A stretch of DNA of 35,076 nt from Verrucomicrobiales bacterium (GCA_018058245.1 JAGPCC010000013.1:1-35076), one strand, 5' to 3'; positions 3,145-29,679 are shown, numbered from the stretch's first letter. Made by a program: numbers and translations. The notes: a model not told the origin generated them from the sequence alone.

Positions 3145-3984
3145 ATGTCCGATCCAGCTCCGATTTTCTTCGATAGTCACATGCACACTCCGCTCTGCAA
3201 ACATGCGGAGGGACACCCGATTCTCTATATGGAGCACGGTGTTTCGCAGGGACTCTCCGGGATCATCATGACGTGCCACAGCCCGATGCCGGACGGATTT
3301 TCAAGTCGGGTGCGAATGGCTCCAGAACAGTTTAATGAATACTTGGGGCTCGTAGAAGAAGCTGCCGACGCCGCTCCCGAGGGTTTTGAAGTGCGCCTCG
3401 GCATGGAGAGCGATTTTTTTCCGGGGATGGAACCTTGGCTGCGCGAACTCCATGCAAAAGCCGACTTTCACTACATTCTTGGATCGGTTCACTGGCACAT
3501 TGCCGAATACATGGATGCCTTTTGGAAAGGAAACCCGCTGCATTTTCAAAAGCAGTACTTCGAACATCTCGCCGAATCAGCCGAATCGGGACTTTTTGAC
3601 AGCCTCGCTCATCCAGATCTTGTCAAAAACGCCAGCCCGGTAGACTGGGATTTCGCGAGAATCCAACCTTCCATCGAGCGCGCCCTCGACCGGATCGCCA
3701 AAACGGGAGTGGCCATGGAAATCAATACTTCGGGTCTCAACAAGTCCTTTCCCGAGATGAATCCAGGGCCGAAAATGCTGCGCCTCATGGCAGAGAGAGC
3801 GATCCCCGTAGTGATCGGATCGGATTCCCACACTCCGACCCGCGTCGGCGACAACTTTGATCTAGCACTCGACTTCCTCTCGGACGCCGGTTACAAAACC
3901 GTCAGCGTATTTCGTCATCGCGAAAGGAGCGATCTGGAGATCAGTGCAGTGAAGGACAGCCTCACTCTCCTGAGCCGACTATAA
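3145..3984 (+). CDS. PHP-domain histidinol-phosphatase-like protein
   Basis: The 279-residue product is a PHP-family phosphoesterase of the HisJ/HisK type. Metal ligands are in place: FDSHMHTPLCKH at the N-terminus (Asp10, His12, His14, His19), GMESDFFPG, LGSVHWH, DSLAHPDLVK and a closing GSDSHTP. These ligands normally hold a trinuclear metal centre that hydrolyses phosphate monoesters. HisJ-type enzymes dephosphorylate L-histidinol phosphate in histidine synthesis. No other his gene is nearby, so that exact role is inferred from family only and another small phosphate ester is possible. Length is normal for the family. The stop codon overlaps by six bases the 3' end of the convergent minus-strand gene. 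Confidence 0.82.
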   Translation: MSDPAPIFFDSHMHTPLCKHAEGHPILYMEHGVSQGLSGIIMTCHSPMPDGFSSRVRMAPEQFNEYLGLVEEAADAAPEGFEVRLGMESDFFPGMEPWLRELHAKADFHYILGSVHWHIAEYMDAFWKGNPLHFQKQYFEHLAESAESGLFDSLAHPDLVKNASPVDWDFARIQPSIERALDRIAKTGVAMEINTSGLNKSFPEMNPGPKMLRLMAERAIPVVIGSDSHTPTRVGDNFDLALDFLSDAGYKTVSVFRHRERSDLEISAVKDSLTLLSRL

Positions 3985-4875
3985 CGAATCCTCAATATCC
4001 CCGATCTCCTTCGCGAGATTCGTCATCCGTTGGACCTCTTGTCGATAACCAGACTCATCATTCTGGAGGTAAAACTCGTCACGGCGGATGCGACACTCCT
4101 CCAAAGCGACTCGGAGTTCCTCGATTCGCACCCGAGTCTGCTCAAGATCTGCCTTGCTCGGGACAGGAGCTTTCACTACCGGAGCCGGCCGGATAGTCGG
4201 CTCGGTCGCGGCTTGTGGCATCACCTCGTCAGGAGCAGGCAGCTCGATGGGAGAGTTTACCCGCGAGGCGAGTTCGACCGATTCGATCGCGGGTTGCAAG
4301 GCCGATCGTTCCGAATTGGCAGCAGTGGTGTCCTTGTCGGTAGCGTGAAGCATCTTCCCGGCCTCCGCATAGAGTCGGTCCATCGGAGGCTCAAAAATCG
4401 GGGCAGCGACATACACGAGGCGAATCACAGAGAGCGAAAACACGATCAGCGCCGAGATTTTCAGACCCCATTGCACTCTCGAGTCCGAGAGAAGCTGGCG
4501 CATAAAGGAATCTCGACTCCCCGAAGCCGGTTCCAGACCGTTCTCCGAATCGTCTGTGACCAGTTCAAAAATCGATTCACATTCGCAAAGGACAAGGTCT
4601 TCGTCGTACAACCAGTTGTAAAAGTTGAGCAATCCCATCGCCGTGAAGGCCCCGCGGTCGATTTGGTAGACCTGTTTTGAGATCTCCTCGAAACTGCGCT
4701 TCCCATCAAAACGTTGTAACATTTCGAACTGCCAACGATTGATGGAGTATCGTTGCGAGCGGGAACTCCTCTCCACCACGACGCTAGTGTCCGTCCGAAA
4801 AAACCGCAACTCTTCTCGCAGCCGAAAGCGAAGCGGGAAGATTTCGTCAAGATTTCCTGGAAGTGAACTACTCAA
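3979..4875 (-). CDS. PqqD-like domain / single membrane helix / coiled-coil protein
   Basis: This 298-residue protein has no named family that I recognise. Residues about 14-105 look like a PqqD-type winged helix of the kind that binds peptides: two beta strands (LRFFRTDTSVVVER), then a helix ending in MLQRFDGKRSFEEIS, then a helical hairpin. A single hydrophobic helix follows at about 138-158. Next come an Ala/Pro-rich linker and a C-terminal charged coiled coil (about 243-298). The predicted topology is N-terminus inside and coiled coil outside. PqqD-like domains are known as recognition elements for ribosomal peptides and also occur in peptide-export genes; a role here is inference. It lies 93 bases after the S8 protease on the same strand, with its own possible promoter. 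Confidence 0.6.
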   Translation of the reverse strand: MSSSLPGNLDEIFPLRFRLREELRFFRTDTSVVVERSSRSQRYSINRWQFEMLQRFDGKRSFEEISKQVYQIDRGAFTAMGLLNFYNWLYDEDLVLCECESIFELVTDDSENGLEPASGSRDSFMRQLLSDSRVQWGLKISALIVFSLSVIRLVYVAAPIFEPPMDRLYAEAGKMLHATDKDTTAANSERSALQPAIESVELASRVNSPIELPAPDEVMPQAATEPTIRPAPVVKAPVPSKADLEQTRVRIEELRVALEECRIRRDEFYLQNDESGYRQEVQRMTNLAKEIGDIEDSL

Positions 4876-4902
4876 GGGATACAGATTTCTAAGATTCCAA
4901 AA

Positions 4903-4908
4903 ATTATA
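4903..4908 (-). promoter_or_regulatory. Possible -10 box upstream of the PqqD-like gene
   Basis: On the minus strand the 93-base gap after the protease gene contains a perfect TATAAT, 28 bases before the ATG at 4875. No good -35 hexamer sits 16-18 bases upstream. The gap is much richer in A+T than its surroundings. The last gene of the cassette may therefore be transcribed separately as well as by read-through. Confidence 0.25.
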
Positions 4909-4968
4909 ATATTGTATCTGTGTTCGTCCAGAGAAATTATGGGAAATCTTTTAAATCCTTGTTTTAAT

Positions 4969-5745
4969 TCATTTCGCGACAGGTTTTGCCAGTACGGAAA
5001 GTAGAGGTTTTATGCTCCACGGGCTGATCCCCGGAAAGGACGAGATCAATTTCGCAATTTTCCCGGCGATGAGAGGTGCGGCATAACTGCTACCTGTCTC
5101 GACTTTTTTTTCGCCGTTCAGCCAAGGTACTTCAACTCGCTCTCCCGAGGCACAAAAGGAAACCATCCGTCCCGAAGAAAAATAGAATTCGTCCGAAGGG
5201 CAATCAATCCCTCGAACGCTGATCACGCTCGGAAAATACGCAGGCCACTCCCGAATACCGACATCAATATTGCTGCTTGCCGCCACAACCTGAACTCCTT
5301 CCAGATAGGCTCGATCCACCCATTCCTTGTATTCCATCAGGTAGCGAGGCAGTCCGCGACAGCCGAAACTACAGTTGATGACTTGATACCCCCGATTGAT
5401 CGCCTGATTGACACACTCTGCGATGACAAAACTACGGGCCTGATTGCTGCTGTCGAGCGCCCGAAAACTACCGATCGTCACACTGGGGGCCTCCCTGCGG
5501 ACGAGACTAGCAACGGCAGTGCCATGCCCGTAAACATCTCCGCCGACTCCTTCAAAGATCCGTAGATTGATCCCGTCGCAGGATACGGAGACATCGTCCT
5601 CTAGCTTCAGGCCCGACAATGCGGGATGTCCGACATCAATTCCAGAATCGATGATGGCCACCTTCACTCCCTCGCCATCCCCGCACTCCAGTGCTTCGCG
5701 CGCCGCCTTGAGGTCTGGCCAAACGATGGATGAATCAGCCTCCAT
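4969..5745 (-). CDS. S8 subtilisin-like serine protease, compact cytoplasmic form
   Basis: The 258-residue product has a complete subtilase triad: Asp33 in VAIIDSGIDVGHPAL, His74 in VYGHGTAVASLV and Ser220 in TGSSYAAPLIAGKIAKL. Asn159 in VVAASSNIDVG is the likely oxyanion-hole residue. There is no signal peptide and no propeptide, and it is shorter than secreted subtilisins (about 275 mature plus 80-100 pro). It is therefore probably a cytoplasmic maturation or signalling protease, as seen in cyanobactin PatA/PatG-type enzymes; that comparison is inference. Its ATG lies inside the last codons of the GAF gene (11-base overlap), so the two are translationally coupled. The PqqD-like gene follows. 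Confidence 0.85.
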   Translation of the reverse strand: MEADSSIVWPDLKAAREALECGDGEGVKVAIIDSGIDVGHPALSGLKLEDDVSVSCDGINLRIFEGVGGDVYGHGTAVASLVRREAPSVTIGSFRALDSSNQARSFVIAECVNQAINRGYQVINCSFGCRGLPRYLMEYKEWVDRAYLEGVQVVAASSNIDVGIREWPAYFPSVISVRGIDCPSDEFYFSSGRMVSFCASGERVEVPWLNGEKKVETGSSYAAPLIAGKIAKLISSFPGISPWSIKPLLSVLAKPVAK

Positions 5746-6331
5746 CTCGAAATCCTAAGGCAGATGAAAACAAGAGCTCATTGATCAGTCGTTCGAGCAA
5801 ATTGGATGTCCGAGCGAGAATCTCGACATCCCCGGAACTAAAACCCTCGCGGACGCGCTCCGTCTCTTCCAATTGCACACAGGAAATGACACCTCTCAAA
5901 CCGAATCCAAAGTAGAATGGGACCGCGATCATCGCCGTAGTATGCTTGGCGATTTTGCGGTCCAAGGTGTCATCGTGGCCATCACTCGCCTGGATGGCGT
6001 TCTCACAATAGGGTTGTTGCTGGGCGTAGACCATGGAGATGATCCCCTGCCCCATCGGCTGCTGGAAGCCGACGAGACTATCTTGGTCTTCTCCCGAATT
6101 GAAACAGGCCACGAGTCGGTAGGATCGTTCATCAGCGATCCACACTGTGCCCTCACATCCCCCTGCTTCCGCAAATGCAGTGCGGAGCAATCCGAGCGAG
6201 ACTGGATCGAGCAACTCCACCAGTTGCATGGGATCGGTTGCCTCGATCCAATCGTCGAAATGCCTTTCCAGAATTACCGCAGAATCGGCCAGCCCTGGAT
6301 GCCTCAGCAACTTCGTTTGCACTCCCGACAT
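5735..6331 (-). CDS. GAF-domain-like sensor protein
   Basis: The 198-residue protein has one recognisable domain, a GAF-like sensor fold at about residues 40-190: GTVWIADERSYRLVACFNSG, then QGIISMVYAQQQPYC, then MIAVPFYFGFGLRGVISCVQ, then a C-terminal helix. GAF domains bind small ligands or light-sensing chromophores, or act as dimer platforms. No output domain is attached, so the signal must pass to a partner. The start at 6331 is chosen because it lies one base after the stop of the 73-aa gene. A longer upstream frame to 6424 would overlap that gene fully. The 3' end overlaps the S8 protease start by 11 bases, suggesting the protease is the partner (inference). Confidence 0.65.
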   Translation of the reverse strand: MSGVQTKLLRHPGLADSAVILERHFDDWIEATDPMQLVELLDPVSLGLLRTAFAEAGGCEGTVWIADERSYRLVACFNSGEDQDSLVGFQQPMGQGIISMVYAQQQPYCENAIQASDGHDDTLDRKIAKHTTAMIAVPFYFGFGLRGVISCVQLEETERVREGFSSGDVEILARTSNLLERLINELLFSSALGFRDGG

Positions 6332-6332
6332 A

Positions 6333-6554
6333 CTATGCCTGAGCTTGCAGCGTCTGAACCAACTCGTGGAGAGCTTTTTCGTTCCCCAAGATTCCGGGGA
6401 GGAGTTCCGCGCGACCTTCCGCATTCAGTTTGCCAGAAGCGAAGAGAGTGATTTTCTCAATCTGTTCTTGGGTGAGCGGAGAGGAGGAACGCCCAGAAGC
6501 TTCTGGTCCGAGACTTTCCAAAAACTGAGTAAGAATGGCGATTTCGTTGTTCAT
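6333..6554 (-). CDS. Small 73-aa protein, first gene of the GAF/S8/PqqD-like cassette
   Basis: I do not recognise a family with certainty. The product is helical. Its second half (EKITLFASGKLNAEGRAE, then ALHELVQTLQ) resembles the N-terminal region of anti-sigma factors, where a short helix, GxL turn and E/R-rich helix repeat, but the zinc ligands (His, Cys) of that class are absent. It has no Cys and no obvious core segment, so it is a weak candidate for a modified-peptide precursor. A TTG 27 bases upstream could extend it, but the ATG at 6554 is preferred. Its stop is one base from the GAF gene start, indicating translational coupling. Confidence 0.55.
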   Translation of the reverse strand: MNNEIAILTQFLESLGPEASGRSSSPLTQEQIEKITLFASGKLNAEGRAELLPGILGNEKALHELVQTLQAQA

Positions 6555-6692
6555 AGATTCTTTGTGTGCTTGCAGATACAATGAATGACGAAAGATGTGA
6601 AACTTTTATGCGGGTATCATGAAACATTTTTTCCGCAGTCGCCGAATTAACTGAAATTCAATCAATATAGCAAAAATTACAATTATGGCTAT

Positions 6693-21342: not shown

Positions 21343-22053
21343 TCATAGATCGAGACCGACCGCACAGAGCTTTTGGAAATCTTCCCATTCCAGCCGCAAG
21401 GAGCTATCCGCCTCTCGAATTTTCTGCATCGTGATCGCAGCCACTTGCTCGCGTGCCAAGGTCAACGCTCGACTGACGCGAGTCTGATCACATTGCCACA
21501 TTTTTGCAATATTCGCTTGGCTGATGCCATGGAGATAGGACAGCTTCATCATCAACAGGGTATCCGGTCCGAGGGAGTCGAACGCTTCCCGGATAGCCCG
21601 CCCCATCAGCTCTGCAAGATCGCTATCGAGAATGTTTTCATCGACATTTTCCCCGGCGATCCGATCGAATTGATCTCCCCCCTTCGCATCGTCGTCGTCA
21701 TAGGTCGGGAGTTCACCACGAAATCTGTCGCGCCGCTTCAGATCCAACCACCGATTCCAGGTGATGCGGATCATCCAGGTCGAAAGGGAAGATCTGCCTT
21801 CAAATTTCTCGATGAGTGGTCGTGTCTGTCCATTTTTTCCCGCCCCGAAGCACTCGGCAATCACGTCTGCGACAAGGTCTTCTGCCTGGAGGCGGTCAAC
21901 CCCCCGTGACATCAGGACTCGCTCCAGCATCGGCCGGTAATTCTCCTGAAACTCCCGCACCGCAGCAATGTCTCCGCTCGCCGCACGATCCACGAGATCG
22001 AGATCCTCTGCGTATCGCAACGGTTTTACTTCAGAAATGGGCCCGCTCATCAT
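21343..22053 (-). CDS. ECF-type RNA polymerase sigma factor
   Basis: The 236-residue protein has the sigma-2 region (LVDRAASGDIAAVREFQENY, LQAEDLVADVIAECF, LSTWMIRITWNRWLDLKRR) and the sigma-4 helix-turn-helix (SYLHGISQANIAKMWQCDQTRV). A hydrophilic linker lies between them. Such factors direct RNA polymerase to a small regulon. No anti-sigma gene is adjacent: the next minus-strand gene downstream is the SGNH hydrolase and the upstream one is an ABC ATPase. Two ATG codons sit together at the start. Its control mechanism is not visible. A second ECF factor is encoded at 28948. Confidence 0.87.
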   Translation of the reverse strand: MMSGPISEVKPLRYAEDLDLVDRAASGDIAAVREFQENYRPMLERVLMSRGVDRLQAEDLVADVIAECFGAGKNGQTRPLIEKFEGRSSLSTWMIRITWNRWLDLKRRDRFRGELPTYDDDDAKGGDQFDRIAGENVDENILDSDLAELMGRAIREAFDSLGPDTLLMMKLSYLHGISQANIAKMWQCDQTRVSRALTLAREQVAAITMQKIREADSSLRLEWEDFQKLCAVGLDL

Positions 22054-28465: not shown

Positions 28466-28966
28466 ATGAATTTTCCCTCCCGCCTACTCGCTTGTGTCCT
28501 TCTTTTTTCGCCCACGCTGCGTGCGGAAGAACCTTCCGTAGTGAATCTACTCCCTGCGGTTCTTCATGACGCGGCGGGAAAGGAGATCGACTCCTCCTCC
28601 TTGAAAGGGAAATACGTCGGACTCTATTTTTCCGCCCACTGGTGCCCTCCGTGTCGTGCCTTTACGCCGAGCCTCGTAAAATTCCGGAATGAAAATGCCG
28701 AAAAGAACTTCGAAATCGTTTTTGTGAGTCTCGATAAGTCCACAGGCGACAAGAAGAGGTATATCAAAGATACGGAAATGAAATGGCCCAGCATCCCGGG
28801 AGCAAGTAGTAAAACCGCTGATTCCCTCGCGCAGCAGTTTTCTATCGAGTCCATTCCCACCTTAGTGATCCTAGCACCAGATGGCTCCGTCGTAACAGCG
28901 CAGGGTCGCGAAGATGTGATGATGTCGTACGAAACCGCATTGCTAAGATGGAAAAAGAAACCCTAG
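28466..28966 (+). CDS. Secreted TlpA/nucleoredoxin-like thioredoxin
   Basis: The 166-residue protein has a signal peptide (about residues 1-20) and a thioredoxin fold of the TlpA/nucleoredoxin type. The active site SAHWCPPCRAFTP holds Cys60 and Cys63, and the cis-Pro lies in ESIPTLVILAPDG. It has the Lys/Asp-rich insert (SLDKSTGDKKRYIKD) seen in nucleoredoxin-like members. Such proteins reduce disulfides in the envelope. Its 3' end overlaps the ECF sigma factor start by 19 bases, so the two are translationally coupled. This links envelope redox chemistry to the sigma factor (inference). Confidence 0.88.
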   Translation: MNFPSRLLACVLLFSPTLRAEEPSVVNLLPAVLHDAAGKEIDSSSLKGKYVGLYFSAHWCPPCRAFTPSLVKFRNENAEKNFEIVFVSLDKSTGDKKRYIKDTEMKWPSIPGASSKTADSLAQQFSIESIPTLVILAPDGSVVTAQGREDVMMSYETALLRWKKKP

Positions 28967-29679
28967 TTTTGAGCCGTCCAGAAACAACATCCGAGGATAG
29001 AAGCGGGAGCACAGTGATGATTCCTGAGACGTCCCCTCATCGGGACAACGCCGATGCAGCCCCGGATTTCGACGCAGCCCGTGTCGGTGGCAAAGCGTTC
29101 ATGCGGAAGCCGGACCCCGACATTGACTTGGTGGAGCGTGCGCGGAACGGAGACACCCATGCCTTCGATGAGTTGGTGCGCAAGTACACCCCGAAGCTCT
29201 ACGGTTTGGTCTATCACATGACCTCGAACCGCGACGACACGAACGATCTGCTCCAGGATGTCTTCGCAAAAGCGTACCGCTCCCTAAAGCGCTTCCGGGG
29301 AAAATCCTCGTTTTACACTTGGATCTATTCCATCGCGACGAACATGACGCTGAATTTCCTGAAAAAGCGAAACCGCCGTCGCACCTTGAGCCTCGACGAT
29401 GTTGATCTTACGATCGAAAATGACCCCGACTATATTGAAGCCACTTCGAAAAGTGACCCAGTCAGAGAAGCAGGACTTTCCGAATTGCAGGAAAGATTGA
29501 ACGTGGCAATGCAACAGCTGTCAGTAGACCACCGAGCTGTGGTCACGATGTTTGACATTCAGGGAATGCCTCACGCAGAGATCTCGAAGATCCTTGGAGT
29601 TTCCGAGGGTACCGTGAGATCACGGCTCTTCTACGCGCACAGACTATTGCAATCCTGCCTGGAAGATCTTCGAAAGTAG
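28948..29679 (+). CDS. ECF-type RNA polymerase sigma factor (RpoE/SigW-like)
   Basis: The 243-residue protein has a sigma-2 domain (VERARNGDTHAFDELVRKYT, DDTNDLLQDVFAKAYRSL, FYTWIYSIATNMTLNFLKKR) and a sigma-4 helix-turn-helix (MFDIQGMPHAEISKILGVSE, GTVRSRLFYAHRLL). This is the RpoE/SigW subgroup. About 50 N-terminal residues precede the domain; alternative ATG starts at 29017 and 29101 are possible, and 29101 gives the usual length. It is coupled to the thioredoxin gene upstream and is 15 bases before the putative anti-sigma gene. Directed transcription of envelope-stress genes is the family role. Autoregulation is likely but its promoter motif is not seen. Confidence 0.9.
   Translation: MEKETLVLSRPETTSEDRSGSTVMIPETSPHRDNADAAPDFDAARVGGKAFMRKPDPDIDLVERARNGDTHAFDELVRKYTPKLYGLVYHMTSNRDDTNDLLQDVFAKAYRSLKRFRGKSSFYTWIYSIATNMTLNFLKKRNRRRTLSLDDVDLTIENDPDYIEATSKSDPVREAGLSELQERLNVAMQQLSVDHRAVVTMFDIQGMPHAEISKILGVSEGTVRSRLFYAHRLLQSCLEDLRK

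Follow-up and report, generated by a model that had tools for sequence, protein, structure and literature searches.

The window analysed here is a 35,076-nt stretch of DNA from a Verrucomicrobiales bacterium (GCA_018058245.1 JAGPCC010000013.1:1-35076). It carries a minus-strand gene cluster that encodes a small anti-sigma-like protein (SML), a GAF-domain protein, a compact S8 (subtilisin) protease and a PqqD-like membrane protein. A more distant gene, SIG, encodes an extracytoplasmic function (ECF) sigma factor (Table 1). The four open reading frames (ORFs) of the cluster, which the initial annotation had described as a cassette, were all confirmed, as was the proposed translational coupling of the first three: SML and GAF are separated by 1 base, and GAF and S8 overlap by 11 bases. 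The PqqD-like gene starts 93 bases past the S8 stop codon. The SIG gene was overlooked in the initial annotation and is the missing member that defines the system.

Table 1. Genes and promoter elements of the locus, with window coordinates.
Feature	Position	Strand	Properties
SML, anti-sigma-like small protein, zinc-less	6333-6554	-	73 aa; kept in 22 A-type loci, adjoins SIG in sister families
GAF-domain protein, putative sensor/gate	5735-6331	-	198 aa; GAF_2 4.3e-5
Compact S8 (subtilisin) protease	4969-5745	-	258 aa; PF00082 6.4e-24
SIG, ECF sigma factor with conserved C-terminal tail	21343-22053	-	Ortholog of sister-family sigma gene; TIGR02937 1.4e-19
ECF-type promoter GCATAA-N15-CGTC, upstream of SML	6587-6611	-	20/22 genus loci, diverged spacers
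PqqD-like membrane protein, accessory	3979-4875	-	298 aa, TTG start; AF2 model and Foldseek
Sigma70-like promoter TGGACG-N16-TATAAT of PqqD-like gene	4903-4930	-	Aligned upstream regions of PqqD-like gene

Conservation of the gene cluster and linkage to SIG

The order SML-GAF-S8 was found in all 22 A-type loci (close relatives, with the window included), an adjacency that is far beyond chance, and the locus was mostly syntenic, flanked by a PHP-domain gene and smc. Homologs of the GAF protein were detected in 39 of 57 related genomes, copies 50-75% identical were present in 29 further genomes of the genus, and the GAF gene always adjoined S8. The four-gene neighbourhood expected in relatives was upheld for SML, GAF and S8 but only partly for the PqqD-like gene, which lay 3' of S8 in 17 of the 22 loci.

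SIG has the ECF-type regions 2 and 4 of a sigma factor (TIGR02937, 70.3 bits against a cut-off of 42.9), and its match to Sigma70_r2 was also above the cut-off. Beyond region 4 there is a C-terminal tail in which W223, D225, L229 and C230 are invariant. The window protein is 38% identical to its ortholog in locus L049 and 58-88% identical to those of 28 other genomes of the genus.

In sister families, SIG, SML, GAF and S8 were encoded consecutively on one strand (L118-L122, L134, L146, L147, L155, L158 and L162), as SIG-SML-GAF with a convergent S8 gene (L116), or as a SIG-SML pair convergent with a GAF-S8 pair (L124, L150, L152-L154 and L159). The hosts of these cassettes include Chthoniobacter flavus Ellin428, in which gaps separate the halves of the cassette, Prosthecobacter, and Limisphaerales metagenome-assembled genomes. 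Within the genus of the window, SIG was located 8.9-22.4 kb upstream of the GAF gene and on the same strand in all 16 genomes that had both genes on one contig; a block of genes thus appears to split what is a single operon elsewhere. A survey of 286 genomes from the class found both SIG (E<1e-30) and S8 (E<1e-60) in 15, S8 without SIG in two and SIG without S8 in two (Fisher p=5e-21, a value that overstates independence because the genomes are related to each other), and 13 of the 15 co-occurring pairs were no more than 3 kb apart. Finally, a 466-aa ORF in genome G249 (L126:7856-9256) is a natural fusion of SIG (residues 1-213), SML (206-279) and GAF (275-461). The linkage of SML-GAF-S8 to SIG is well supported by these observations.

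Properties of the encoded proteins

The SML profile comprises an N-terminal helix, a linker with the motif EVxG[H/R] and a three-helix part; the protein is helical and has no long hydrophobic segment. No Pfam family was found for SML or for the PqqD-like protein, and a PDB sequence search with both profiles gave nothing significant. Two SML homologs matched PRK13920, a putative anti-sigmaE family (best 7.6e-4), and 4 of 26 members matched zf-HC2 (best 0.002), in each case below the family cut-off. When an AF2 model of SML (pLDDT 75) was compared with the PDB using Foldseek, five of the 23 matches were anti-sigma chains (three entries: DdvA, RskA and RslA); these had the highest probabilities, although their E-values were not significant. 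DdvA was also matched weakly by the SML sequence profile (E 0.24), and comparison of that profile with one Rhizobiales anti-sigma factor gave no confident match (probability 6%). The gene is located beside an ECF sigma gene in sister families and is fused with one in L126, which is the context of a class I anti-sigma factor.

Zinc-less forms of class I anti-sigma factors (ASDI) are known (PMC7406223). SML resembles members of this class (RskA, RslA, DdvA, ChrR, RsiW) in that a helical domain is encoded beside its ECF sigma factor, and differs from them in being soluble, just 73 aa long and devoid of a transmembrane (TM) or sensory domain; the resemblance is weak. Taken together, the gene order, the fusion and the weak but concordant likeness in fold and profile make SML most likely a zinc-less anti-sigma domain. 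Two assignments, GatB/YqeY (0.046) and the VbhA antitoxin (one member), were rejected since they were inconsistent across members. Regulated intramembrane proteolysis of a membrane anti-sigma factor was discarded because SML has no TM helix.

The protease matched the S8 family in Pfam, whereas the GAF_2 match of its partner was below the family cut-off. Residues Asp33, His74, Asn159 and Ser220, which correspond to the Asp/His/Ser triad and oxyanion Asn of S8 subtilases, were invariant in 20 of 20 aligned relatives. About 24 residues precede the S8 domain, too few to hold a propeptide, and a signal peptide was not apparent; these findings agree with the complete triad and lack of a signal peptide reported initially. 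The best NCBIfam profiles were those of mycosin, QhpE and PatA, all far below the family cut-offs, and none of these names was adopted; genes for a quinohaemoprotein, for type VII secretion or for cyanobactins were not seen in the window. Assignment to a defence system was likewise rejected, since PADLOC returned generic subtilase models for S8 only and none for the other three proteins.

The genome of the window has a second GAF-S8 pair on contig C310 (L003:7747-10415), followed by a YkuD L,D-transpeptidase gene. The same arrangement, termed the B-type operon, was found in L034-L048. Its L,D-transpeptidase has a conserved N-terminal domain of about 190 aa ahead of an internal signal-like segment and may be processed by the B-type protease. 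Compact S8 genes with an adjoining GAF gene were also present in Actinobacteria, Chloroflexi, Hyphomicrobiales and others (L163-L178, L192 and L196); some of the Chloroflexi loci have a Crp/Fnr-type regulator upstream. Among the whole set of loci, a few have a GAF ORF that is only a predicted frame overlapping a longer S8 ORF. The occurrence of such pairs without SIG suggests that GAF-S8 is an older sensor-protease pair that was joined to a sigma/anti-sigma pair by Verrucomicrobiota. In three sister-family loci a CobW/ZigA-like GTPase gene lies directly 3' of S8 (L118:6852-8051, L119:9927-11123 and L134:767-1897); its P-loop looks degenerate in L118 and L119.

The PqqD-like protein consists of an N-terminal domain resembling PqqD and RiPP recognition elements (RREs; RiPPs are ribosomally synthesized and post-translationally modified peptides), one TM helix and a conserved C-terminal helical hairpin. 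Foldseek comparison of its AF2 model gave probabilities of about 1.0 for TbiB1 and 6jx3 (lasso B1), 0.84 for PbtF and 0.66 for PqqD (5sxy), with marginal E-values of 0.009-0.7. A predicted RRE winged-helix fold is supported by these matches, and the earlier PqqD-like designation was retained. Tblastn searches of the five loci that lack the gene revealed no real homolog, the matches in L072 and L056 being no more than fragments that overlapped the S8 gene. Alignment of upstream regions showed a separate, conserved sigma70-like promoter for the gene. Because of this promoter and its absence from 5 of the 22 loci, the PqqD-like protein is an accessory in the genus of the window, and its original placement as a core member was abandoned.

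Promoter motif and candidate regulon

The element upstream of SML, GCAT(A)-N-CGTC, was conserved with constant spacing in 20 of the 22 loci of the genus, while the letters of the spacer had diverged. In sister families a similar element, (T/C)GCAA-N-GTC, lay after SIG and ahead of SML; this resemblance is suggestive only, because the pattern was adjusted after some of the sequences had been inspected. Upstream of B-type operons there was one degenerate match in 19, and there was none before SIG in the genus.

In 13 genomes of the genus the exact pattern preceded genes for secreted Gly/Tyr/His-rich proteins and lipoproteins, which form a loose cluster of at least two families. In five genomes it preceded a gene for a basic peptide of 47-53 aa, followed by a radical-SAM protein gene. 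The latter was identified as GrrM/OscB (428 bits, cut-off 310). A family search detected GrrM in 15 genomes of the genus, and within the 520 bases upstream a good promoter match was present in 13 of 14 readable GrrM operons, seven of them at 354-358 bases before the enzyme start. TGCATAA-N15-CGTC promoters would be read by SIG. Two further observations concern these genes. At the GrrM/OscB loci (L243, L244, L253, L269, L271 and L286-L300), the 47-53-aa peptide behind TGCATAA-N15-CGTC and ahead of the enzyme has the pattern ..DRIR.VR.G.RA.QPL.YRI..VR... In the genome of the window, a secreted (GSSHGGGH)n-repeat protein is encoded behind the SML-type pattern on contig C37 (L217:1588-1881).

The initial annotation had reported that no modifying enzyme was nearby. 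This was true of the window ORFs, but the same promoter precedes the GrrM operon in related genomes. Its view that a standard RiPP pathway is unsupported was borne out: no modifying enzyme stands beside a precursor among the window ORFs, and GrrM was not found by family search in the window's own genome assembly.

Proposed mechanism and alternatives

The reading that we prefer, with a probability of roughly 0.55, is that SML, GAF, S8 and SIG form one signalling module in which the protease cuts SML and thereby frees SIG. In the resting cell SIG would be bound and blocked by SML. A signal inside the cell would be sensed by the GAF protein, which would control the S8 protease, and SML would then be cut, probably in the conserved linker after its first helix. 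The freed SIG would transcribe from TGCATAA-N15-CGTC promoters, including that of the SML-GAF-S8 operon itself, which would constitute feedback. In related genomes its targets would be envelope or secreted genes, among them those for the secreted Gly/His/Tyr-rich proteins and the GrrM operon; the PqqD-like protein is an accessory of the genus.

Precedents for protease action on a sigma-binding partner support this proposal. In CRISPR-Calp, the CalpL protease cleaves the anti-sigma factor CalpT, which partners the ECF sigma factor CalpS (PMC11417357). The logic proposed here is the same, with a sensor-linked soluble protease, an anti-sigma factor and an ECF sigma factor; the parts differ, CalpL being a SAVED-Lon protease that senses cA4 and CalpT a 33-kDa protein, whereas here the GAF and S8 proteins are separate and SML has 73 aa. 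The window module was therefore not assigned to CRISPR-Calp. In Craspase (gRAMP/TPR-CHAT), the protease cleaves Csx30, a partner bound to the ECF-type sigma factor RpoE (PMC9729208). It too acts on a sigma-bound partner, as is proposed here, but the protease is caspase-like and RNA-guided and the partner is a different protein. The sensor and protease of neither system are homologous to those of the window module, and no CRISPR proteins were noticed among the window ORFs, though no formal search for cas genes was made. By gene context, the ECF54 group is similar in that a subtilase gene adjoins the ECF sigma gene; it has been described without an anti-sigma factor, the sigma factor itself being proposed to be degraded (PMC8999054), and differs in this respect from the present module, in which SML is encoded.

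Several points weigh against this mechanism. The anti-sigma role of SML, its cleavage by S8, the gating of S8 by GAF and the reading of the promoter by SIG are predictions. The Foldseek E-values for SML were 3.4-10, and one SML member matched VbhA better in Pfam (2.4e-4). Across the genus, the exact promoter pattern gave 80 matches and its reversed control 50, only a modest excess; this statistic is weak alone, so the case for a regulon rests on the genes that recur behind the promoter. Genomes G033 and G014 of the genus have the cassette and gave no SIG match, possibly because the assemblies are incomplete. Pairs of GAF and S8 occur without SIG or SML in other phyla and in the B-type operon of the genus, and no S8 gene was detected in the fusion genome G249 at E<=1e-40.

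The last of these points suggests a possible direct action of GAF on SML. GAF could then be a co-anti-sigma or releasing factor on SML-SIG, with S8 acting on SIG or on a product of the regulon, for instance to switch the system off by destroying SIG or its C-terminal tail. The invariant motif in that tail favours such a role, as does a review that names subtilases as one group of peptidases for which degradation of anti-sigma-free ECF factors, such as ECF54, has been proposed (PMC8999054). However, nearly all other genomes, those of phyla without SIG among them, retain S8 next to GAF, and the conserved linker of SML would be just as suitable as a protease site; we consider this explanation rather unlikely.

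It is quite improbable that GAF and S8 make up an independent protease module with a substrate of its own, such as the N-terminal domain of the B-type L,D-transpeptidase or the PqqD-like protein, and that SIG-SML are its neighbours through shared regulation only. The SIG-less pairs of Actinobacteria, Chloroflexi and Hyphomicrobiales and the B-type operon within the same genus are consistent with this idea, but the SIG-SML-GAF fusion, the strong co-occurrence of SIG and S8 and the synteny retained in many families argue against it.

A peptide-processing cassette along the lines of the initial annotation, with SML as a precursor peptide that the PqqD/RRE domain holds and S8 cuts, could draw on the RRE-like fold, the sub-threshold resemblance of S8 to the RiPP proteases QhpE and PatA and the GrrM maturase that shares the promoter in relatives, but is very doubtful, since SML lacks a leader/core architecture, is retained in loci without the PqqD-like gene, sits between SIG and GAF in the fusion, and has no maturase in the window or GrrM in its own assembly. 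The other proposal of that annotation, a GAF-controlled protease acting on the small protein, persists in cleavage of SML by S8, which would be the best mechanism here too; with an ECF sigma factor found, SML is most likely to serve as an anti-sigma factor and not as a peptide substrate without assigned meaning.

Literature searches found no paper that joins an ECF sigma factor, an anti-sigma factor, a subtilisin and a GAF protein; the initial annotation knew of no named system with its four-gene set. Tentatively, the module might represent a non-CRISPR Verrucomicrobiota system. A subtilisin that lacks a secretion signal and is gated by GAF would degrade a minimal, zinc-less anti-sigma factor, and the released ECF sigma factor would induce secreted Gly/His-rich proteins and GrrM-type radical-SAM peptide modification, the GAF-S8 half being older and shared by several phyla. 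Most known cases in which a soluble protease under the control of a sensor releases a sigma factor come from CRISPR systems. If the proposed cleavage of SML is correct, this logic would prove to be general, with a widespread chromosomal version built on a subtilisin and a GAF protein; the compact GAF-linked subtilisins of several phyla would be assigned a role, and the candidate Verrucomicrobiota regulon would make the signal testable.

Two other sigma factor genes were observed. The window encodes a second ECF sigma factor of a different, RpoE-like type (28948-29679, plus strand). In a Rhizobiales locus (L194:3933-6816), an ECF sigma factor, a zinc-less membrane anti-sigma factor and a long S8 protease of the secreted type are encoded in a row, as a parallel set.

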